From assembly GCA_008711135.1 (NCBI GenBank), contig VUAW01000001.1, positions 496,001 through 560,000 of the forward strand: a stretch of DNA of 64,000 nt. Reading direction: 5' to 3'. The notes below the pieces were generated by a model. The model saw nothing but the letters and a program-made list of their open reading frames with translations, had not been told where the DNA came from and searched no databases. Numbering within the stretch: the first letter of the stretch is position 1; the number at the start of each line of letters is the position of its first letter. The position numbers and the translations under genes are program-made. This document shows, in pieces, positions 3,143 to 48,994 of the stretch. This DNA is from Rhodobacteraceae bacterium LNNU 3342 (GTDB lineage: Bacteria > Pseudomonadota > Alphaproteobacteria > Rhodobacterales > Rhodobacteraceae).

Positions 3143-5908
3143 CTATTCCGCGGCCATTGCCCCTGCCGGTTCGACACGGACGGCGGCGAACTTGAACTCC
3201 GGGATCTTGCCATAGGGGTCGAGCGCCGGGTTCGTCAGCACGTTGGCCGCGGCCTCCACATAGGCGAAGGGAACGAAGACCATATCCTCGGCCACGGCGC
3301 GGTCGGCCCGGGCCATGATCGTGATCTCGCCCCGCCGGGTGATCAGGCGCACCATGCCGCCCGCTTCCACCCCCAGGCGCCGCAGCGTGGTAGGGTGGAG
3401 GGAGCAGTTCGCCTCTGGCTCTACCGCGTCCAGCACGCGCGACCGGCGGGTCATCGACCCGGTGTGCCAGTGTTCCAACTGCCGCCCCGTCGTCATCACC
3501 ATCGGGAATTCAGCATCCGGGCTCTCGTCCGGCGGAATGAGCGCGGCGGGGGTAAAGCGGGCACGCCCTTCGGCCCGGGGGAAGCCATCGCCAAAGACGA
3601 TGGGCTGGCCCGGATCGCTGGGCGAGAGGCTGGGGTAGGTCACCGCACCTTCGTTCACCAGCCGGTCCCAGGTGATGTTGTCGAGGCTGCGCATCCCCCG
3701 CGCCATCTCGGTATAAACCTCGGACGGGTCGGTGTACTGCCAGTCGAGGCCAAGCCGGCGCGCGAGGTCCACCGTGATCTGCCAATCCGGAAGGGCCTGC
3801 CCTGGGGGCCTCACTGCCGCCCGCGCGATCTGCACCTGCCGGTTGGTGTTGGTCACCGTCCCGGCCTTTTCGTAGAAGGCAGCCGCGGGCAGGATCACGT
3901 CCGCATAGTTCGCGGTTTCCGTCAGGAAGATGTCCTGCACCACAAGATGCTCGAGCTTGGCCAGCGCCTCGCGGGCATGGGTCACGTCCGGGTCAGACAT
4001 CGCCGGGTTCTCGCCCGAGATATACATGCCCCGGATCGTGCCTTCGTGCACCGCATCAAGGATTTCCGTGACCGTCAGGCCCTTTTGCGCCGAAAAGTCG
4101 CCGCTGCCCCAGATTTCGGAAAACTGCGCGCGAACCGCGTCATCCGTCACCGTCTGGTAATCCGGCAGGAACATGGGGATGAGGCCCGCGTCGGACGCAC
4201 CCTGAACGTTGTTCTGCCCCCGCAGCGGATGCAGCCCTGTCCCCGGCCGCCCCACATGCCCGCACATGAGCGCGAGGCTGATCAGGCAACGGGAATTGTC
4301 GGTGCCATGGATGTGCTGCGAAACGCCCATCCCCCAGAAGATCATCCCGGCCCGCGAGGTCGCAAAGTCCCGCGCCACCTGGCGGAGCGTTTCAGCCGGG
4401 ATGCCGCAATGTTCGGCCATCTTTTCCGGCGTGAAGTTCGCCAGATGCGCCTTCTCGGCCTCCCAGTTCTCGGTATAGGCGTCGATGTATTGCTGGTCGT
4501 AGAGCCGTTCCTCGACGATCGTCGCCATGATCGCGTTCAGCATCGCCACGTCCGCGCCGGGGCGGAACTGGAGCATATGCGTCGCGTGCCGCTTCAACGC
4601 CTGCCCGCGCGGGTCCATCACGATCAGCTTGCCGCCGCGCTTGGCGAACTGCTTGAAGAAGGTCGCAGCCACGGGGTGATTTTCGACCGGATTCGCGCCG
4701 ATGACGATGGCGACGTCGGCGTTCTCGATCTCGTTGAAGGTGGCCGTCACGGCGGCGGAACCGACGTTCTCCATCAGCGCCGCCACCGAGGACGCATGGC
4801 AAAGCCGCGTGCAGTGGTCGACGTTGTTATGGCCGAACCGCTGGCGGATCAGCTTCTGGAACAGATAGGCCTCTTCGTTGGTGCACTTGGCACTGCCAAA
4901 GCCCGCGACAGACTGGCCGCCATGGGCTGCGTCCAGCTGGGCAAGGCCATTCGCGGCCACGTCCAGCGCCTCTTCCCACGTCGCCTCGCGGAAGTGGGTC
5001 CAAGGGTTGGCGGGATCGACGTTCAGCCCCTTGGGCGGCGCATCCTCACGCCGGATCAGCGGCACGTGCAGCCGGTGCGGGTGATGGATGTAGTCAAAGC
5101 CGAAGCGGCCCTTGACGCAGAGGCGGCCTTCGTTCGCGGGGCCGTTGATGCCGTCCACGTGGGTGACGCGGTCGCCCTTGATCTTGAGGCTCACCTGACA
5201 CCCGACGCCACAGAAGGGGCAGACGCTTTGCACTTCACGGTCGAAGTCGCGGCTGTCCCCCCGTTCCTCGGCATCAAGGGTCGCAGGCATCAGCGCGCCC
5301 GTGGGGCAGGCCTGCACGCATTCGCCGCAGGCCACGCAGGTGCTGTTGCCCATGGGATCGTCAAAGTCGAAAACGGGATAGGCGTCGTGACCGCGTCCGC
5401 CCATGCCGATCACGTCGTTCACCTGCACTTCGCGGCAGGCGCGGACGCAGAGGTTGCACTGGATGCAGGCGTCGAGGTTCACCCGCATCGCCACGTGGCT
5501 GTCGTCCAGCAGCGGGATGCGTTCGACCTCCAGCGTCGGGAAGCGGGACGTGCTCACACCTTGGGCATCAGCCATGTCCCACAGGTGCGAAGATCGGTCG
5601 TGCGCCATTTCCCGTTCGGGCTGGTCGGCCAGCAGCAGTTCCATCACCAGCCGCCGAGAGGTTTCTGCCCGCGCGGACTGGCTGTTGACGACCATGCCAT
5701 CCGCCGGCTTGCGGATGCAGCTGGGGGCCAGCACACGCTCGCCCTCGATCTCTACCATGCAGGCGCGGCAGTTGCCGTCGCTGCGATAGCCGGGCGCATC
5801 CTTGTGGCAAAGGTGGGGGATCAGCGTGCCCTCGCGCTTTGCCACCTCCCAGATGGTTTCATCGTCGCGCGCCTGAACCTCGCGCCCATCAAGCGTAAAG
5901 CGGATCAT
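3143..5908 (-). CDS. fdhA: NAD-dependent formate dehydrogenase alpha subunit (Mo/W-bis-MGD)
   Basis: Catalytic subunit of a soluble NAD-linked formate dehydrogenase (formate to CO2), 921 residues. In order: an N-terminal [2Fe-2S] domain (Cys 34, 47, 50, 64); two ferredoxin-type [4Fe-4S] motifs (Cys 148/151/154/158 and 191/194/197/201); a [4Fe-4S] site next to the molybdopterin domain (CPFCGVGC at 230-237 plus Cys 264); and the metal-site motif CTRLCHAS, whose Cys 370-His 371 pair is the expected metal ligand and catalytic His. The start at 5908 has GAGG six bases upstream and follows the stop of the beta gene by one base, so translation is coupled. The HCTRLCHASSV wording and the two-gene layout resemble the tungsten FDH1 of Methylobacterium extorquens. 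Whether Mo or W is used cannot be read from sequence. Confidence 0.93.
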   Translation of the reverse strand: MIRFTLDGREVQARDDETIWEVAKREGTLIPHLCHKDAPGYRSDGNCRACMVEIEGERVLAPSCIRKPADGMVVNSQSARAETSRRLVMELLLADQPEREMAHDRSSHLWDMADAQGVSTSRFPTLEVERIPLLDDSHVAMRVNLDACIQCNLCVRACREVQVNDVIGMGGRGHDAYPVFDFDDPMGNSTCVACGECVQACPTGALMPATLDAEERGDSRDFDREVQSVCPFCGVGCQVSLKIKGDRVTHVDGINGPANEGRLCVKGRFGFDYIHHPHRLHVPLIRREDAPPKGLNVDPANPWTHFREATWEEALDVAANGLAQLDAAHGGQSVAGFGSAKCTNEEAYLFQKLIRQRFGHNNVDHCTRLCHASSVAALMENVGSAAVTATFNEIENADVAIVIGANPVENHPVAATFFKQFAKRGGKLIVMDPRGQALKRHATHMLQFRPGADVAMLNAIMATIVEERLYDQQYIDAYTENWEAEKAHLANFTPEKMAEHCGIPAETLRQVARDFATSRAGMIFWGMGVSQHIHGTDNSRCLISLALMCGHVGRPGTGLHPLRGQNNVQGASDAGLIPMFLPDYQTVTDDAVRAQFSEIWGSGDFSAQKGLTVTEILDAVHEGTIRGMYISGENPAMSDPDVTHAREALAKLEHLVVQDIFLTETANYADVILPAAAFYEKAGTVTNTNRQVQIARAAVRPPGQALPDWQITVDLARRLGLDWQYTDPSEVYTEMARGMRSLDNITWDRLVNEGAVTYPSLSPSDPGQPIVFGDGFPRAEGRARFTPAALIPPDESPDAEFPMVMTTGRQLEHWHTGSMTRRSRVLDAVEPEANCSLHPTTLRRLGVEAGGMVRLITRRGEITIMARADRAVAEDMVFVPFAYVEAAANVLTNPALDPYGKIPEFKFAAVRVEPAGAMAAE

Positions 5909-41805: not shown

Positions 41806-42753
41806 ATGAGCGATTTCTTCCACCCGATCTCGGGTTTTGATCTGCCCCGCTTTGCCGGCGTTCCCACCTTCATGCGCCTGCCGCATGTTCCCCTCGACGA
41901 TCCGCGGCTGGCAGAGGTCGAGATCGGCCTGATCGGCGCCCCTTGGGACGGCGGCACCACCAACCGTCCCGGTCCCCGCCACGGCCCGCGCCAGCTGCGC
42001 GACCTGTCCACCATGATCCGGGCGCAGAACGGGGCCACCGGCGTGCGTCCCTTTGAACGGGCCAATTGCGCCGATCTGGGCGACGTGCCACCGAACCCCG
42101 CCGACCTGATGGACACGCTGGGGCGGATGACTGATTTCTACACCCAGGTCCGCGCCGCCGGCATCCGCCCCCTGACCGCCGGAGGCGACCACCTGTGCAC
42201 GCTGCCGATCCTGCGGGCGCTGGCCAAGGATCGCCCCTTGGGCATGATCCATTTCGACAGCCACACGGACCTGTTCCACAGCTATTTCGGCGGCACGATG
42301 TACACCCACGGCACCCCCTTCCGCCGCGCGGTAGAGGAAGGGCTGCTCGACCCCCGCCGCGTCTGCATGATCGGCATCCGCGGCACCACCTATGACAGCG
42401 AAGACCGGGACTTCGCCACTGCCCAAGGCATCCGCGTCATCCCGATCGAGGAATTCCACGCCCGAGGCCCCGTGGACGTCATGGCCGAGGCCCGCGCCAT
42501 TGCAGGCGATGGCGACACCTATGTCAGCTATGACATCGACTTCATCGACCCGGCCTATGCCCCCGGTACCGGCACCCCGGAAATCGGCGGGCCGACATCC
42601 TATCAGGCACTGCAGGTGGTGCGTGGCCTTCAAGGGGTGCGAATTGTGGGTGCCGACCTTGTCGAGGTTTCGCCGCCCTTCGACCCATCGGGCGGGACGG
42701 CGTTCCTTGGTGCCTCGGTGATGTTCGAACTGCTCTGCGTGATGGTGGCCTAG
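41806..42753 (+). CDS. Agmatinase-family ureohydrolase
   Basis: Mn-dependent hydrolase of the arginase/agmatinase fold, 315 residues. Metal-ligand motifs are GGDH (126-129), DSHTD (151-155, where the usual family wording is DAHxD) and SYDIDFIDP (241-249), so the two-metal centre is complete. Likely releases urea from agmatine or another guanidino compound; the exact substrate is open. The start at 41806 follows the epimerase stop by one base. Its stop codon shares CTAG with the stop of the converging znuB. Confidence 0.85.
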   Translation: MSDFFHPISGFDLPRFAGVPTFMRLPHVPLDDPRLAEVEIGLIGAPWDGGTTNRPGPRHGPRQLRDLSTMIRAQNGATGVRPFERANCADLGDVPPNPADLMDTLGRMTDFYTQVRAAGIRPLTAGGDHLCTLPILRALAKDRPLGMIHFDSHTDLFHSYFGGTMYTHGTPFRRAVEEGLLDPRRVCMIGIRGTTYDSEDRDFATAQGIRVIPIEEFHARGPVDVMAEARAIAGDGDTYVSYDIDFIDPAYAPGTGTPEIGGPTSYQALQVVRGLQGVRIVGADLVEVSPPFDPSGGTAFLGASVMFELLCVMVA

Positions 42754-43541
42754 CGGCGCAGCATCCCGGCCACGGGCACCGACACCGCGAAAAGCGTCGC
42801 CGCCAACGCGACGATGCTTGGCCCCGCCGGCGTGTCCCAGTGCAACGAGGCCTGAAGGCCGCCCAGCACCGCAAGCCCGCCGATCAGGACGGCCAGCACC
42901 GCCATCGCCTCGGGCGTGCGGGCAAGGCTGCGGGCCGTCGCGGCGGGCACGATCAGCATGGCGGCGATCAGCAGCGCGCCAACCACCTTGATGGCAACCG
43001 CCACCACCAGCGCCAGCGCCACGGTCAGCACCAGCCGTTCCCGCCCCGGATTGATGCCCGAGGCATGGGCCAGATCCTCGCTCAAGGTGGCGGTCAGCAA
43101 TCCCCGCCAGCGCCAGACCAAAAGCGCCACGACCGCCGCCGCCCCGCCTGCGATCACTGCAAGGTCCATGCGGGACACGGCAAGGATGTCCCCGAACAGG
43201 TAGGCTGACAGGTCCACCCGGACCCCCGGAATGAACGACACCGCCACCAGACCAAAGGCCAGCGCCGAATGGGCCAGAACTCCCAGTGTCGTATCCATCG
43301 CCCAGCCTCGGCCGGCCAGCGAGGCAACCGTCAGCGCCATCAGCAGCGCCACGACCAGCGTCCCCGCGTAGATCGAGGTGGAAAAGGCAAGCGCCAGCGC
43401 CACCCCCAGAATGGCCGCATGCGCGGTGGCGTCCCCGAAATACGCCATGCGCCGCCAGACGACAAAGCACCCCAACGGGCCGGTGGCGCAGGCAACAGCA
43501 AGCCCGGCAAGCGCCGCGCGGACAAGAAAATCATCAAGCAT
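42750..43541 (-). CDS. znuB: Zinc ABC transporter permease
   Basis: Integral membrane permease of the high-affinity Zn2+ importer, 263 residues and about eight hydrophobic segments. The N-terminal LLDDFLVRAALAGLA-like start, MAYFGDATAHAAILGVALAL and the KVVGALLIAAMLIVPAATAR block are typical of the family. The start at 43541 lies 8 bases inside the end of znuC. Last gene of zur-znuC-znuB. Its stop (TAG) is the reverse of the ureohydrolase stop within the same CTAG. Confidence 0.94.
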   Translation of the reverse strand: MLDDFLVRAALAGLAVACATGPLGCFVVWRRMAYFGDATAHAAILGVALALAFSTSIYAGTLVVALLMALTVASLAGRGWAMDTTLGVLAHSALAFGLVAVSFIPGVRVDLSAYLFGDILAVSRMDLAVIAGGAAAVVALLVWRWRGLLTATLSEDLAHASGINPGRERLVLTVALALVVAVAIKVVGALLIAAMLIVPAATARSLARTPEAMAVLAVLIGGLAVLGGLQASLHWDTPAGPSIVALAATLFAVSVPVAGMLRR

Positions 43542-44289
43542 CGGCGGCTCTTTGGCTGTGGTGGTGGGCATGGTCATGCCCGTCGTGGTCGTGGTCATGC
43601 ACGTGCTGGTACAGCGCCAGCGCGCCGCCGGTCCCGAGCCCGAACAGCGCCCGGTATTCTGGTGCATTCGACACAACGCGGGGTGTCCCCTCGCAGCAGA
43701 CATGTCCGTTCAGGCATATCACCCGGTCCGAGGCGCTCATGACCACGTGCAGGTCATGGCTGACCAGAAGAACGGCACAGCCGATGTCGCGGCGCACTTC
43801 CTCGATCAGCTTGTAAAAGGCCGCGACCCCCGGCTGGTCAAGCCCCTGCGTCGGTTCGTCCAGCACCAGTATTTCCGGCCGCGACAGCAGCGCCCGGGCC
43901 AGCAGCACCCGCTGGAACTGCCCGCCCGACAGGCCAACCATCTGCCGTCCGCCAAGTTCGGCCACGCCAGTGCGCGCCAGCGCCTCGGCAGCGGCGTGGT
44001 CATCCACCCGGTCAGGCAGCGACAGGAAACGCCGCACCGTGATCGGCAGCGCCGGGTCGACATGCAGCCGCTGTGGCACATAGCCGATGCGCAGCCCCGC
44101 CTTGCGCATCACGCGTCCTTCGGACAAGGACTGGATACCCAGAAGCGCCCGCAGCAGCGTCGACTTGCCTGACCCGTTCGGCCCGACAACGGTGACGATT
44201 TCCCCCTGCGAGATTGCGAAATCCACATGCGCCAGAACCGGCGCGCCGCCGTGGCGGATAGTCAGGTTGCGCGCTTCGATCAGGCTCAT
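43534..44289 (-). CDS. znuC: Zinc ABC transporter ATP-binding protein
   Basis: ATPase of the ZnuABC importer, 251 residues from the ATG at 44289. Walker A GPNGSGKST, signature LSGGQFQRVLLARALL, Walker B ILVLDEPTQGLDQ, and the H-loop LLVSHDLH are all present. The C-terminus has a His-rich tail (HVHDHDHDGHDHAHHH), seen also in other ZnuC proteins and able to bind zinc. The start overlaps the zur stop (ATGA) and the end overlaps znuB by 8 bases. Confidence 0.95.
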   Translation of the reverse strand: MSLIEARNLTIRHGGAPVLAHVDFAISQGEIVTVVGPNGSGKSTLLRALLGIQSLSEGRVMRKAGLRIGYVPQRLHVDPALPITVRRFLSLPDRVDDHAAAEALARTGVAELGGRQMVGLSGGQFQRVLLARALLSRPEILVLDEPTQGLDQPGVAAFYKLIEEVRRDIGCAVLLVSHDLHVVMSASDRVICLNGHVCCEGTPRVVSNAPEYRALFGLGTGGALALYQHVHDHDHDGHDHAHHHSQRAADA

Positions 44290-44780
44290 GCCGCGCTCCG
44301 GCAGGCGGGGCACAGGCCCAGCGCCTCGATGTTGGATCGCTCGATGGCGAAACCCGCATCGGCCGCCGCGGCTTCCAGCGCGCTGCGGAGTCCCGTCCCT
44401 GGCGCTTCGGCGACCGCCTGGCAGGACCGGCAGATCAGGAAGACCGGCTGATGCGCCTCTCCAGGATGCATGCAGGCGGCAAAGGCGTTCAGGCGGCGCA
44501 CGCGATGCGCCAGGCCCAGATCCACCAGGAATTCCAGCGCCCGATAGGCGACCGGGGGCTGGTTGCCAAAGCCGTCAGCCGCCAGCCGTTCCAGCACCTC
44601 GTATGCGCCCAGCGCCTGATGTGCCTCAAGCAGGATTTCAAGCGTGCGGCGGCGCACCGGCGTCATGCGCGCCCCCTTTTCCCGGGCAAGCGCCTCGGCC
44701 CGCGCCAGCACGTCGCTGGAACAATGGCTGTGGTCGTGCTGGGCAAAAGCCAGCCGGGACTGAGGTGTGTCGTTCATCAT
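44286..44780 (-). CDS. zur: Zinc uptake regulator (Fur family)
   Basis: Zn-responsive repressor of 164 residues. A winged-helix domain (about 30-95, including RMTPVRRRTLEILLEAHQALGAYEVL) precedes the dimerisation domain, which keeps the two structural zinc pairs CRSC and CPAC. The N-terminus carries extra His/Cys residues (HDHSHCSS). An ATG at 44777 is an alternative start. It leads the zur-znuC-znuB operon and is divergent from znuA, with a Zur box between, so it should repress both directions, itself included, when zinc is sufficient. Confidence 0.94.
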   Translation of the reverse strand: MMNDTPQSRLAFAQHDHSHCSSDVLARAEALAREKGARMTPVRRRTLEILLEAHQALGAYEVLERLAADGFGNQPPVAYRALEFLVDLGLAHRVRRLNAFAACMHPGEAHQPVFLICRSCQAVAEAPGTGLRSALEAAAADAGFAIERSNIEALGLCPACRSAA

Positions 44781-44787
44781 TCCGTCC

Positions 44788-44816
44788 TTGACATGTTATG
44801 TCATAACATATGATAC
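44788..44816 (+). promoter_or_regulatory. znuA promoter with a Zur box filling its spacer
   Basis: TTGACA (44788-44793), a spacer of exactly 17 bases and TGATAC (44811-44816) form a near-consensus promoter for znuA. The spacer contains TGTTATG-T-CATAACA (44794-44808), a perfect palindrome extended by one more pair to 44793-44809, matching the TGTTATA-type Zur boxes of proteobacteria. A bound Zur would sit between -35 and -10 and block RNA polymerase. On the other strand the box is 14-31 bases before the zur start. Confidence 0.85.
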
Positions 44817-44848
44817 GCAGCCCACCCTGCCAAGGAGGACCAAGAAGA

Positions 44849-45880
44849 ATGCGTTATACCATCACCCTTGCCGCGGCCAGTGCCGCAGCGGCCATCGCCG
44901 CGACTGCCGCCTCTGTTTCCGCCGAGGTTCCCGAGGTTGTGACTGACATGCCGGTCGTTCATTCGCTTGTAACGCAGGTGATGGGCGATCTTGGGACGCC
45001 GGCTGTCCTTCTGGATCAGGGCGCCGATTCCCACAGCTTCCAGCTTCGCCCCTCGCAGGCGGCGGCGCTGTCCGGGGCCGACCTGCTGTTCTGGGTGGGG
45101 CCGGAAATGACCCCGTGGCTGGATCGTGCGATCACCGGCGTCGGCCTTCGGGGCGAGGCGATAAGCCTGCTTCACGCCGAAGGCGTCACCACCCGCGCCT
45201 ATGATGACGCGGATCCTCATGATCACGGGGACGGACACGGGCATGATCATGGGGACGGGCACGGCCACGACCACGCACATGGACACGACCATGATCATGG
45301 GCATGATCACGGGCATGATGAAGCGCATGGACACGAAGACCATGATCACGCCCACGACGGGCTTGACCCCCACGCCTGGCTTGATCCCGAAAATGCCCGG
45401 GTGTGGCTTGACGTGATCGCCGTCGAACTGGCCGAACATGACCCGGAGAATGCATCCGTCTACCAGGCAAATGCCGAAGCGGCCCGCGCGGCCATTCAGG
45501 AAGCCGAAGCCCAGGTGGCAGCCCTGCTGGAGCCGGTGGGCGACACGCCGATCTATGTGTTCCATGACGCCTATGGCTATTTCGCCGACCATTTCGGCCT
45601 GAACATCAGCGGCACCGTCGCATCCGGCGATGCGGCCAGCCCCGGCGCTGCCCGCCTTTCCGCCTTGCGGGACGAGGCTGGTCAGGGCGCCGCCGTCTGC
45701 ATCTTCCCCGAAGCGCAGCACGATCCGCGCCAGGTGGAGCTTCTGGCCGAAGGCAACGACATGCGCGTGGGCGCGCCGCTGGACCCCGAAGGCAGCACCC
45801 TGACCTATGGGCCGGACCTCTACACGACGCTGCTGCTTGGCCTGGCCCAGAACATCGCCGACTGCGTGACCGAAAGCTAG
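44849..45880 (+). CDS. znuA: Zinc ABC transporter substrate-binding protein
   Basis: Periplasmic zinc-binding protein of the ZnuABC importer, 343 residues with a Sec signal (about 1-25, cut near SVSA-EVPE). A loop at residues 124-169 is nearly all His/Asp/Gly, with 20 His in 46 residues, the flexible metal-rich loop known in ZnuA proteins. Metal-site histidines are expected in DQGADSHSFQLRPSQ, DPHAWLDPENA and VFHDAYGYF. The start at 44849 is preceded by AAGGAGG. Under Zur control through 44788-44816. Confidence 0.95.
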   Translation: MRYTITLAAASAAAAIAATAASVSAEVPEVVTDMPVVHSLVTQVMGDLGTPAVLLDQGADSHSFQLRPSQAAALSGADLLFWVGPEMTPWLDRAITGVGLRGEAISLLHAEGVTTRAYDDADPHDHGDGHGHDHGDGHGHDHAHGHDHDHGHDHGHDEAHGHEDHDHAHDGLDPHAWLDPENARVWLDVIAVELAEHDPENASVYQANAEAARAAIQEAEAQVAALLEPVGDTPIYVFHDAYGYFADHFGLNISGTVASGDAASPGAARLSALRDEAGQGAAVCIFPEAQHDPRQVELLAEGNDMRVGAPLDPEGSTLTYGPDLYTTLLLGLAQNIADCVTES

Positions 45881-45942: not shown

Positions 45943-46791
45943 ATGGCAGACTGGATTGCAGTAGACTGGCCATGCGCGGGGGGAACCGCCCCCCGCGCAT
46001 GGGCAATTGGCCCCGAAGGACCGCTGGCAGAGGCGACGCTGGACCTGCAGGGCAACGAAGCCTTTGGCGACGCGCTTCTTCGGCTGGTCGAGCCGTGGCT
46101 GGATGACGCGACAGATGTGATCGTCGCCGGCGCGGCGGACCCGTCGGCGGCCCGCCCTGTTCCCTGCCCGCCGCTCGACCGGCCCGTAGTCGCTGCGGCC
46201 CCTGACCCGCGCATGCGCCTGCACCTTGTTCCCGGCCTGCGCCAGAACCGCCCTACCCCTGACCTGACGCAGGGGGCCGAGGTTCGCATTGCTGGCCTCA
46301 TTGCGGCTGAACCTCAGTTCGATGGGATCCTCTGCCTCCCTGGCCCGCACACCACTTGGGCGCATCTGAGCGCGGGAGAGGTGGTCAGCTTCCAGACCTT
46401 CCTGACCGGCAGCCTGCTACCCCTGCTTTCCGATGAGGCACCCTCAGCCACAGTTGGAGAGGACTTCCTGCAGGCGGCAGAGGAGGCGCGGTCGCGGCCC
46501 GAACGGCTGGCCGCTCGCCTGGCGCAGGTCCGTGCGGAACAGTTGCTGGGCAGCCTGGACGAGGATGCGGCGCAATCCCGGCGGGCGGGGCTGCTGATCG
46601 GGGCAGAGCTTGCCGCAGCCCGGCCATGGTGGCTGGGTCAGCAGGTGGTGGTCGCCGGCCCCTCGCCGCTCGCGGAACAGTATCTGGCAGCGCTGGCGGC
46701 ACAGGGCGTCACCGCCCGCCCCCGCGCCGAGTCGGAGCTTGTGCTGGCCGGCCTCGTCCGCGCCCGCACCCTTTTGAAGGGTAACGCATGA
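45943..46791 (+). CDS. 2-dehydro-3-deoxygalactonokinase-like protein with altered catalytic motifs
   Basis: The 282-residue product aligns by eye over its length with DgoK kinases: MADWIAVDW at the start, PGPHTTWAHLSAGEVVSFQTFLTG in the middle and LLIGAELAAAR towards the end. But the residues that mark active DgoK differ. The phosphate loop DWGSTNLRAW reads DWPCAGGTAPRAW, the MRGEE motif reads TQGAE, the THxKW motif reads PHTTW, and the TGEL motif reads TGSL. The reading frame is intact and a good ribosome binding site (GAGGGG) precedes it. It overlaps galM by 4 bases. So either a divergent sugar kinase or an inactive relative; the normal partner aldolase is absent. Confidence 0.7.
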   Translation: MADWIAVDWPCAGGTAPRAWAIGPEGPLAEATLDLQGNEAFGDALLRLVEPWLDDATDVIVAGAADPSAARPVPCPPLDRPVVAAAPDPRMRLHLVPGLRQNRPTPDLTQGAEVRIAGLIAAEPQFDGILCLPGPHTTWAHLSAGEVVSFQTFLTGSLLPLLSDEAPSATVGEDFLQAAEEARSRPERLAARLAQVRAEQLLGSLDEDAAQSRRAGLLIGAELAAARPWWLGQQVVVAGPSPLAEQYLAALAAQGVTARPRAESELVLAGLVRARTLLKGNA

Positions 46792-47777
46792 CCGCCGACA
46801 TCCGCCCCTTTGGAACCACCGCCGACGGGCAGGAGGTCAGCGCCATCCGCCTGCAGGCAGGCGAACTGCAGGTGGTGCTTCTGACTTGGGGCGCAGTGGT
46901 TCAGGACCTGCGGCTGGCCGGTACGCCGTGGCCCCTTGTGCTGGGCAGCGATCAGCTGGCGGCTTATGAAAGAGTGATGGACTACTTCGGCGCGGTGGTG
47001 GGGCCGGTGGCGAACCGGATCGGTGGCGCGCGGGTGCGGATCGCAGGCGAGGATCACGGGCTGGAGGCGAATGACGGCCCCGACTGCCTTCACGGTGGCA
47101 CATGGGGCACCCAGCGCCGGATCTGGGCGCTGGCGGATGCCGGGAAGGCACACGCGCTGCTGCGACTGGTGCTGCCGGATGGCGAAGGCGGGCTTCCCGG
47201 GAAGCGGGTGATCGAAGCACTTTACCGGATCGAGCCGCCTTCGACCCTGCGCCTGAGCCTGCGCGCCATCACCGACCGCCCGACCCTGATGAACCCGGCA
47301 AGCCACTGCTACTGGAACCTCGACGCCTCGCCCACGATCCAAGGGCACCGGCTGCGCGTCGTGGCGGACCGTTTCCTGCCGACCCGGAAGAACCTGCCGA
47401 CAGGCGAGGTTGCTGCGGTTCACGGCGCCTTTGATCTGCGCGAAGGCCGGGTCTTTGACCTGAGCGAAGGCTTTGACCACAACTGGTGCCTCAGCAACGC
47501 GCCCCGCCCGCTGACGGAGGTCGCGGTGCTGGAAGGCAGCCGGGGGGTGCGCCTGACGCTTGCCACGACAGCGCCCGGGCTTCAGGTCTTTGACGGGGCG
47601 ACACTGGAGACGCGGCCCTTCCTTGGGCACCTTGGGCAGCCCTATGGGCCGCATGCGGGGGTCGCGCTGGAACCGCAGCACTGGCCGAATGCGCCGAACA
47701 ATCCTGGCTTTCCGTCCGTCCTGCTGCCGCCCGACGGGCGGTTTGAACAGGAAACCTGCTTTACCTTGTCGCGCTAA
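46788..47777 (+). CDS. galM: Aldose 1-epimerase
   Basis: Interconverts alpha and beta anomers of aldoses, 329 residues. Family landmarks: GPVANRIGGARVRIAG near residue 78, the LHGG motif (first catalytic His region), and NPASHCYWNLD carrying the second catalytic His. A Glu near GVALEPQHWPNAPNN provides the base. It overlaps the preceding DgoK-like gene (ATGA), so the pair is coupled and probably handles the same sugar, likely galactose- or arabinose-related. Its TAA stop shares CTAA with the TAG stop of converging puuD. Confidence 0.92.
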   Translation: MTADIRPFGTTADGQEVSAIRLQAGELQVVLLTWGAVVQDLRLAGTPWPLVLGSDQLAAYERVMDYFGAVVGPVANRIGGARVRIAGEDHGLEANDGPDCLHGGTWGTQRRIWALADAGKAHALLRLVLPDGEGGLPGKRVIEALYRIEPPSTLRLSLRAITDRPTLMNPASHCYWNLDASPTIQGHRLRVVADRFLPTRKNLPTGEVAAVHGAFDLREGRVFDLSEGFDHNWCLSNAPRPLTEVAVLEGSRGVRLTLATTAPGLQVFDGATLETRPFLGHLGQPYGPHAGVALEPQHWPNAPNNPGFPSVLLPPDGRFEQETCFTLSR

Positions 47778-48994
47778 AGCCCTGCGGCACGATACCAGCG
47801 CACGACGGCGGCGCGTTCGGCGGGTTCCATGTAGGACAGGTTCGCGGGCGGCATCGCGTGGGTCAGCCCCGCCTGAAGATAGATGTCACGCGCCGACCGC
47901 GCGATCTGCGCCTCGGTTTCCAGAACAACTCCCTTGGGTGCCCAGTGCAGCCCTTCCCAGACGGGTTCAGCGGCATGGCACATGGAACAGCGGCCGGTGA
48001 CGATCTGGTGCACCTCGTCGAAGCCCTCAGCCTCTGCGAACCGCAGGGCTGCGCCGCTCAGCGACGCCTCTTCCTCCACGTGAAACATCGGGGCGGTGGA
48101 CAGCCAGGCGATGATCAGGAACAGCACCGCCGTCGCGCCCCAGGTCCAGATCGGGCTGCCCTTGCGGGCGTGCCGGGTGTTGAACCAGTGCCGGATCGTG
48201 ACGCCCATCAGGAACACGAGGCTGGCGATCAGCCAATTGTACTGACTGGCAAAGGCCAACGGATAGTGGTTCGACAGCATCAGGAACAGTACCGGCAGCG
48301 TCAGGTAATTGTTGTGGGTGCTGCGCTGCTTGGCGATCTTGCCATACTTTGGATCAGGCGCCCGTCCGGCCTTGAGATCGGCCACCACGATCTTCTGATT
48401 GGGGATGATGATCAGGAACACGTTCGCCGACATGATCGTGGCGGTAAAGGCGCCCAGATGCAGCAGCGCCGCGCGCCCCGAAAACACCTGCGTGTAGCCC
48501 CAAGCCATCGCCACCAGGATTACGTAAAGCAGGATCATCAGCCGGGTGTTGTCGTCGCCGAACCGGCTCTTGCAGATCGCGTCATAGGCGATCCAGCCTA
48601 ACCCAAGCGAAGCAAGCGAGATCAGGATTGCCTGCCAGATTGGAATATCCAGCACGTTGGGATCGACCAGATAGAATTCGGCTCCCAGATAATAAACCAG
48701 CACCAGCAGCGCAAAACCCGACATCCAGGTGGCATAGCTTTCCCACTTGAACCACGTCAGGTGGTCCGGCAGCCGCGCCGGGGCCACAAGGTACTTCTGG
48801 ATGTGGTAGAAGCCCCCGCCGTGGACCTGCCATTCCTCGCCATGCGCACCGGGCGGCAGGTCGGGCGCCTGCCGCAGGCCAAGGTCCAGCGCGATGAAAT
48901 AGAAGGACGACCCGATCCACGCAATCGCCGTGATCACGTGCAGCCAGCGCACCGCAAATTCCAGCCATTCGCCCAATACTGCAAGATCATACAT
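47774..48994 (-). CDS. puuD: Membrane-bound urate hydroxylase with C-terminal cytochrome c domain
   Basis: Oxidises urate to 5-hydroxyisourate, replacing soluble uricase and feeding electrons to a c-type haem; 406 residues. The N-terminal part is a membrane domain of about eight spans beginning LGEWLEFAVRWLHVITAIAWIG (His-containing helix) with a STHNNYLTLPVLFLMLSNHYP block. The C-terminal domain has the haem motif CSMCH (336-340), and Met 381 (HAMPP) is a likely sixth ligand. Divergent from the LysR gene; convergent with galM. It starts urate catabolism that continues in 50027-53209. Confidence 0.93.
   Translation of the reverse strand: MYDLAVLGEWLEFAVRWLHVITAIAWIGSSFYFIALDLGLRQAPDLPPGAHGEEWQVHGGGFYHIQKYLVAPARLPDHLTWFKWESYATWMSGFALLVLVYYLGAEFYLVDPNVLDIPIWQAILISLASLGLGWIAYDAICKSRFGDDNTRLMILLYVILVAMAWGYTQVFSGRAALLHLGAFTATIMSANVFLIIIPNQKIVVADLKAGRAPDPKYGKIAKQRSTHNNYLTLPVLFLMLSNHYPLAFASQYNWLIASLVFLMGVTIRHWFNTRHARKGSPIWTWGATAVLFLIIAWLSTAPMFHVEEEASLSGAALRFAEAEGFDEVHQIVTGRCSMCHAAEPVWEGLHWAPKGVVLETEAQIARSARDIYLQAGLTHAMPPANLSYMEPAERAAVVRWYRAAGL

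Follow-up and report, generated by a model that had tools for sequence, protein, structure and literature searches.

DgoK, the 2-keto-3-deoxy-galactonokinase family (PF05035), is represented among solved structures by the Sinorhizobium meliloti (3t69) and Klebsiella pneumoniae (3r1x) proteins. The window (the whole 64-kb stretch of DNA that was analysed) encodes a protein that has in common with them both the sequence family and, over the full length, the predicted fold, but it differs from them in that MRGEE, GTHxK, TGEL and the phosphate loop are altered, and in that it carries two signatures, SAxE and WWLGQ, that neither solved DgoK has. Among the matches listed, no DgoK pseudokinase was found in the titles and abstract openings of the literature on DgoK, on Rhodobacter/Roseobacter, on pseudoenzymes and on dgoK with galM and znuA. 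CoaX and TsaB are catalytically inactive proteins. We know of no precedent for the loss of a whole lobe among pseudo-enzymes built on the actin-like/hexokinase fold. The reuse of an actin-like fold as a binding partner has precedents in mycobacterial CoaX, seen with Dop in the PDB titles 9b78 and 9cku, and in bacterial TsaB; both belong to other families (Z about 14 for the model of the window protein against CoaX).

The original prediction described the gene, hereafter dgoK*, as encoding a DgoK-like protein in which every catalytic motif is changed while the frame is intact. The frame is indeed open from the ATG, with GAGGGG directly upstream, to the stop codon, and the protein scores 168.4 bits against PF05035, well above the Pfam gathering score of 25 bits. 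Alignment with 55 related proteins (mostly intact, three of them themselves altered) showed that all four DgoK family motifs (MRGEE, GTHxKW, TGE and DWGTS) are altered: the phosphate loop, DWGTSNLRAW in the relatives, reads DWPCAGGTAPRAW in the window protein, MRGEE has become TQGAE and GTHxKW has become GPHTTW. The GMVGSxQGW stretch, which was absent from the original list, is also gone. The motifs are thus lost, though not every single residue of them, since D8 and R18 of the phosphate loop, the second glutamate of MRGEE (E113) and H136 of GTHxKW are retained; the description is right at the motif level. Nor did the catalytic residues turn up at shifted positions, a finding that would have spoken against the prediction: the lost motifs do not reappear elsewhere in the alignments.

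Features of the dgoK* locus (positions in the window)
Feature	Position	Strand	Basis
znuB-like ABC-3 permease	42750..43703	-	PF00950
znuC-like ABC ATPase	43534..44313	-	PF00005
zur-like Fur-family gene	44286..44780	-	name by reading and position; no Pfam match at 1e-5
Zur-site-like palindrome GTTA-N5-TAAC, between zur and znuA	44795..44807	.	motif match
znuA, zinc-binding protein	44810..45880	+	PF01297, E 5.2e-57
dgoK*, DgoK-like putative pseudokinase, 282 aa	45943..46791	+	PF05035, E 2.2e-49; altered motifs; model
Former phosphate loop, now DWPCAGGTAPRAW, 3-residue insertion	45964..46002	+	aligned to DWGTSNLRAW of relatives
Former MRGEE, now TQGAE	46267..46281	+	alignment
Former THxKW, now PHTTW	46345..46359	+	alignment
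S-A-G-E turn, core signature	46369..46380	+	SAxE in 59/59 DgoK*
Former TGEL, now TGSL	46405..46416	+	alignment
PWWLGQ, end of long helix 207-230 (model), second core signature	46624..46641	+	[WYF]WLG in 58/59 DgoK*
galM, aldose 1-epimerase, ATGA overlap with dgoK*	46788..47777	+	PF01263, E 2.1e-55
puuD-like urate oxidase, convergent	47774..48994	-	PF06181

The claim that the surrounding fold is kept was borne out by an AlphaFold2 model of the window protein (pLDDT 94.1, pTM 0.90), which was helped to look DgoK-like by its input alignment, made of the window protein and 55 relatives from named records, mostly intact DgoKs. The model has the two-lobed actin-like fold of 3t69 and 3r1x, which were also its top two Foldseek matches. 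VIA-align superimposed it on 3t69 over 273 residues (Z 29.9, rmsd 2.3) and on 3r1x with a Z of 27.3, the next entries scoring 14.7 and below. The DgoK fold is therefore predicted to be whole in the window protein although the active site is not. In the model, the S-A-G-E turn sits between strands 137-143 and 146-153.

We surveyed the family to which the window belongs through 394 genomes, each standing for one genus and drawn from a larger group. A search with the window protein gave a match in 326 of them; coordinates were obtained from a second search with a divergent member and from a complete new scan of 59 genomes, most of them with weak matches. From the fetched loci we extracted 181 sequences, 146 of them distinct, and dropped 10 that were fragments, pieces of broken genes or copies cut by contig ends. 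The remaining 136 were classed by eye on a motif table as 77 intact DgoKs and 59 DgoK*, a class defined by the retention of SAxE and [YWF]WLG and the absence of MRGEE and GTHxK, to which the window protein belongs. With the addition of G210 (L298), DgoK* occurs in at least 60 of the 394 genera (the named relatives are Rhodobacteraceae/Paracoccaceae), a lower bound because the mid-ranking matches were not all fetched. By contrast, 67 of the 394 genera are without a DgoK-family match, so the role of DgoK* is not indispensable; a profile re-scan of the 68 genomes without a match, 17 of which are less than 90% complete or more than 5% contaminated, returned one partial hit only.

The two classes differ sharply in their catalytic motifs. 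MRGEE and GTHxK are each found in 77/77 intact proteins and in 0/59 DgoK*, and a loose P-loop pattern in 76/77 versus 2/59 (AGGTA of the window protein, and L123; both chance-like). TG[ED] occurs somewhere in the protein in all 77 intact DgoKs and in 13 of the 59 DgoK*; in five of the latter, TGE or TGD occupies the former TGEL position, which counts against the dead-kinase reading. The reverse holds for the core signatures: 56 of the 77 intact proteins have SAxE, 56 have [WYF]WLG and 54 have both, versus the near-universal presence in DgoK* (see table). Both are missing from the intact DgoK encoded elsewhere in the window genome (L052). Note that DgoK* were recruited by similarity, which favours proteins keeping a core: some core retention is thus expected, but recruitment by similarity gives no reason for the loss to fall on the catalytic motifs. 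An alignment of 30 DgoK* contains invariant columns, and the old cleft motifs are not conserved there. Altered motifs were also seen in three of 80 named loci, those of Gemmobacter lutimaris (L225), Paracoccus sp. S-4012 (L251) and a record labelled Maritalea mobilis (L257). The last of these (3983-4891) still has GEE and TGE and is still followed by a KDPGal aldolase gene; it is possibly an intermediate in which the kinase was decaying before the operon was lost.

Several DgoK* depart from the DgoK architecture further than the window protein does. In 24 of the 59, the match to the family profile begins at position 75 or later, some of these retaining an N-terminal stretch too divergent to match, and seven are just 164-194 aa long. 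What several of the short forms lack is the N-lobe, the half of the protein that holds the phosphate loop and forms one side of the cleft. A missed N-lobe is impossible in L168 and L161, where only 12 and 14 bp, respectively, separate the start of DgoK* from the gene upstream. DgoK* nevertheless pass the Pfam 2-keto-3-deoxy-galactonokinase cut-off, including the two short ones scanned (L168 and L171, 59 and 69.8 bits), so that galactose catabolism may be wrongly inferred from them.

These observations make it likely that DgoK* is a pseudokinase, i.e. a descendant of the dgo-operon 2-dehydro-3-deoxygalactonokinase that no longer phosphorylates and is selected for a job of its C-lobe. This part of the original prediction, which had offered a pseudo-kinase, a sugar sensor or new chemistry, is well supported by the motif losses. 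The reading rests on the contrast in MRGEE and GTHxK between the two classes and on the retention of SAxE and [WYF]WLG, together with the predicted DgoK fold, the short forms without N-lobe and, as detailed below, the dN/dS values of one genus, the conservation at the protein level, the gene orders common to several genera and the genomes that have no other DgoK. Loss of the kinase motifs would leave a site that is dead in vitro, and the kept part, i.e. the S-A-x-E turn and the YWLGQ helix end, would be a docking surface for another macromolecule. Such a C-lobe function would need neither ATP nor the cleft, and is probably kinase-independent and protein-binding. Since the catalytic half is missing in many genera and a small part is near-invariant, DgoK* offers a testable handle on the hidden second function of a metabolic enzyme.

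A more tentative extension, on balance doubtful, is that the dgo-operon DgoK is bifunctional: the intact enzyme of Rhodobacteraceae would already carry the second role, and its kinase half would have been discarded in at least 60 genera, possibly many times, with the second function surviving every time, in some lineages despite the complete disappearance of the N-lobe and frequently downstream of a transporter gene. The trees bear on the number of losses. In a tree of the 136 sequences, all 59 DgoK* lie on one side of a branch (SH-aLRT 99). The same split was recovered, with a support of 91, below the 95 mark, in an 81-row tree built without the motif columns; after exclusion of the longest branches and of rows shorter than 230 aa, 38 of the 59 DgoK* remained in this tree, and its two outgroup rows did not group together. 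DgoK* evolves fast, and long branches are involved in both protein trees. On a RpoB tree of 79 genomes (47 with DgoK*, 29 with an intact protein and three with both; G249 gave no RpoB), on the other hand, the two states need 12 changes, and 10 changes of the DgoK* label are required even if only well-supported branches are counted. The distance between DgoK* and intact proteins follows species distance (47 x 29 pairs, double-centred rho 0.169, reached by 0/2000 permutations, which treat as independent rows that are not), as compared with 0.586 for intact versus intact; 10 paralogues of other type, a small control, do not follow it (0.032, 610/2000). Moreover, the five of the 29 intact proteins that are closest to the window protein (G316, G034, G128, G159 and G409) all come from the window's nine-genome group on the RpoB tree. 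AU tests on 42 rows rejected neither a single clade of the 20 DgoK* included (p 0.391) nor a grouping of the three-member set that includes the window protein with the intact DgoKs from six species relatives (p 0.501). The protein trees favour one clade, and the distances hint at a history shared with the intact copies of related species.

The neighbours of dgoK* were analysed in 53 loci, with gene calls made by our own script. Directly upstream on the same strand lies sulP in 11 loci, a znuA-like gene in 10, rpe in four and eamA in four, i.e. a transporter gene (sulP, znuA-like or eamA) in 25 of the 53. Downstream, galM follows immediately in six loci, the window and five others, and galM is also adjacent in L305; four of the six have znuA immediately upstream. 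The puuD gene follows in five of the 53. As the neighbours differ by lineage (znuA, sulP, eamA, rpe, lysR), no single pathway is implied. The original prediction had asked whether relatives with galM form a separate conserved clade; such relatives exist, but the lineage extends far beyond the galM-linked set. With respect to other DgoKs, the thresholds used gave no second match to the DgoK family in 39 of the 60 DgoK* genomes, which rules out a heteromer with intact DgoK as a general role. DgoK* does accompany the intact protein of dgo-operon (WLG) type in two (G027 and G210) of 55 genomes carrying the latter and searched with a DgoK* profile, and G221 likewise has both DgoK* and an intact DgoK.

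The pairing with galM is one argument for a sensor, in which an aldose or aldonate would still bind in the cleft, unphosphorylated, and be reported to GalM or another partner. As originally stated, the two genes are coupled in the window, the start of galM lying within the stop codon of dgoK* (overlap -4). Aligned to 4rnl, the galM product keeps the NRI, LHGG, H-Y-NL, DHN and ALE-QH stretches, which we take to be those holding the catalytic residues of aldose epimerase. The full-length fold predicted for the window protein and its four retained residues also fit a sensor. As a family-wide function, however, this reading is weakened by the DgoK* of 164-187 aa, which have no N-lobe and hence no cleft, by the absence of conservation of the old cleft motifs and by the small share of loci in which galM is adjacent; we consider it unlikely.

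The gene orders point to another origin of the pairing. The original prediction noted that no KDPGal aldolase is nearby, and tblastn searches with the dgo-operon aldolase, lactonase, beta-galactosidase and SDR indeed found none of them in the 64-kb window. The KDPGal aldolase, lactonase and dehydrogenase that stand beside dgoK in a De Ley-Doudoroff operon are therefore missing, and of such an operon the window has just dgoK* and galM. The same genome, on another contig (C22, L052), has aldolase, intact DgoK, galM and lactonase genes side by side, as well as a sugar ABC transporter nearest YtfR, below the cut-off of that model. In L037 and many named intact loci, the order is, in whole or in part, SDR, dgoK, KDPG-type aldolase, SMP-30 lactonase and GH42 beta-galactosidase, which is the order given for the De Ley-Doudoroff cluster 1 (dgo) of Roseobacter litoralis in PMC3141670. 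The run downstream of dgoK in Pacificibacter marinus (L235) is lactonase, galM, puuD and HIUase; in the window, galM is followed by puuD and then, past a LysR gene, by HIUase. Finally, L306 (G201) reads zur, znuCB, znuA, dgoK*, SMP30 lactonase, galM and is possibly an intermediate stage of operon erosion. Judging from these gene orders, the window locus looks like a dgo locus that has lost the aldolase, lactonase and beta-galactosidase genes, and the dgoK*-galM pairing looks like a relic of this operon.

Erosion of the operon would also suit a functionless remnant of it, decaying slowly and with its frame open by chance, and a few frames are in keeping with decay: in G120 and G076 the matching region extends across stop codons, suggesting that the ends have been trimmed, and in G249 (C19, L191), which also has an open DgoK*, the match to a second DgoK copy with GTHxK spans four stops. 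Such cases, which the original prediction regarded as a potential refutation, are not the rule. Indeed, in the genus of G400, which carries a short DgoK* rather than the form of the window, comparison of three species gave dN/dS of 0.233, 0.247 and 0.283 (one of the three DgoK* ends two codons early); the estimate is confined to this genus, those of the window, G255 and G155 comprising one genome each. In addition, fourfold sites are about equally variable in conserved (1.50 bits of entropy, n=40) and variable columns (1.57 bits, n=130), so that the conservation lies in the protein, not in the DNA, and selection acts on the protein. The third codon positions being free, an overlapping DNA or RNA element under the conserved core is ruled out. 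These values, the retention of the two core signatures and the gene orders common to several genera make a remnant improbable. Altered chemistry, in which the rebuilt phosphate loop (PCAGGTAP) would serve another substrate or reaction, is less probable still: the loop region does remain rich in Gly and Thr and has been lengthened by an insertion, not shortened, but the insertion is found in none of the 29 other DgoK* aligned and no alternative set of conserved polar residues stands out in the 30-DgoK* alignment, which leaves the proposal of new chemistry with no positive evidence.

With the pseudokinase reading retained, the surroundings of the window gene suggest when it may be expressed. The znuA gene lies 62 bp upstream of dgoK*, and a terminator scan found no terminator-like site between znuA, dgoK* and galM. 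The palindrome GTTA-N5-TAAC, a Zur motif as quoted from PMC4176598, has a single match in the 64-kb window (0.01 expected) and occurs somewhere in the fetched stretch of five of the 10 other znuA-dgoK* loci. L034 has, at the corresponding place, a homologue of the zur-like gene with 75% identity. Given the Zur-like site, the short gap, the terminator scan and the ATGA overlap, the window protein is probably made with ZnuA and GalM from one Zur-controlled transcript, and dgoK* may be a zinc-starvation gene in the window. We do not extend a zinc role to the family, most of the DgoK* loci examined not lying behind znuA (znuA-like upstream in 10/53, plus L306). Three side observations concern transporters. 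ZnuA of the window has a long His/Asp-rich insert (HDHGHDHG). A metal-type ABC importer gene lies downstream of DgoK*, on the opposite strand, in six loci. In eight of the fetched loci (L154, L172, L173, L177, L178, L184, L186 and L190), genes for a BLH-phosphatase/disulfide-reductase fusion and a SulP permease precede DgoK*, in this order, and SulP is present in three further loci whose fetched stretch shows no fusion gene.
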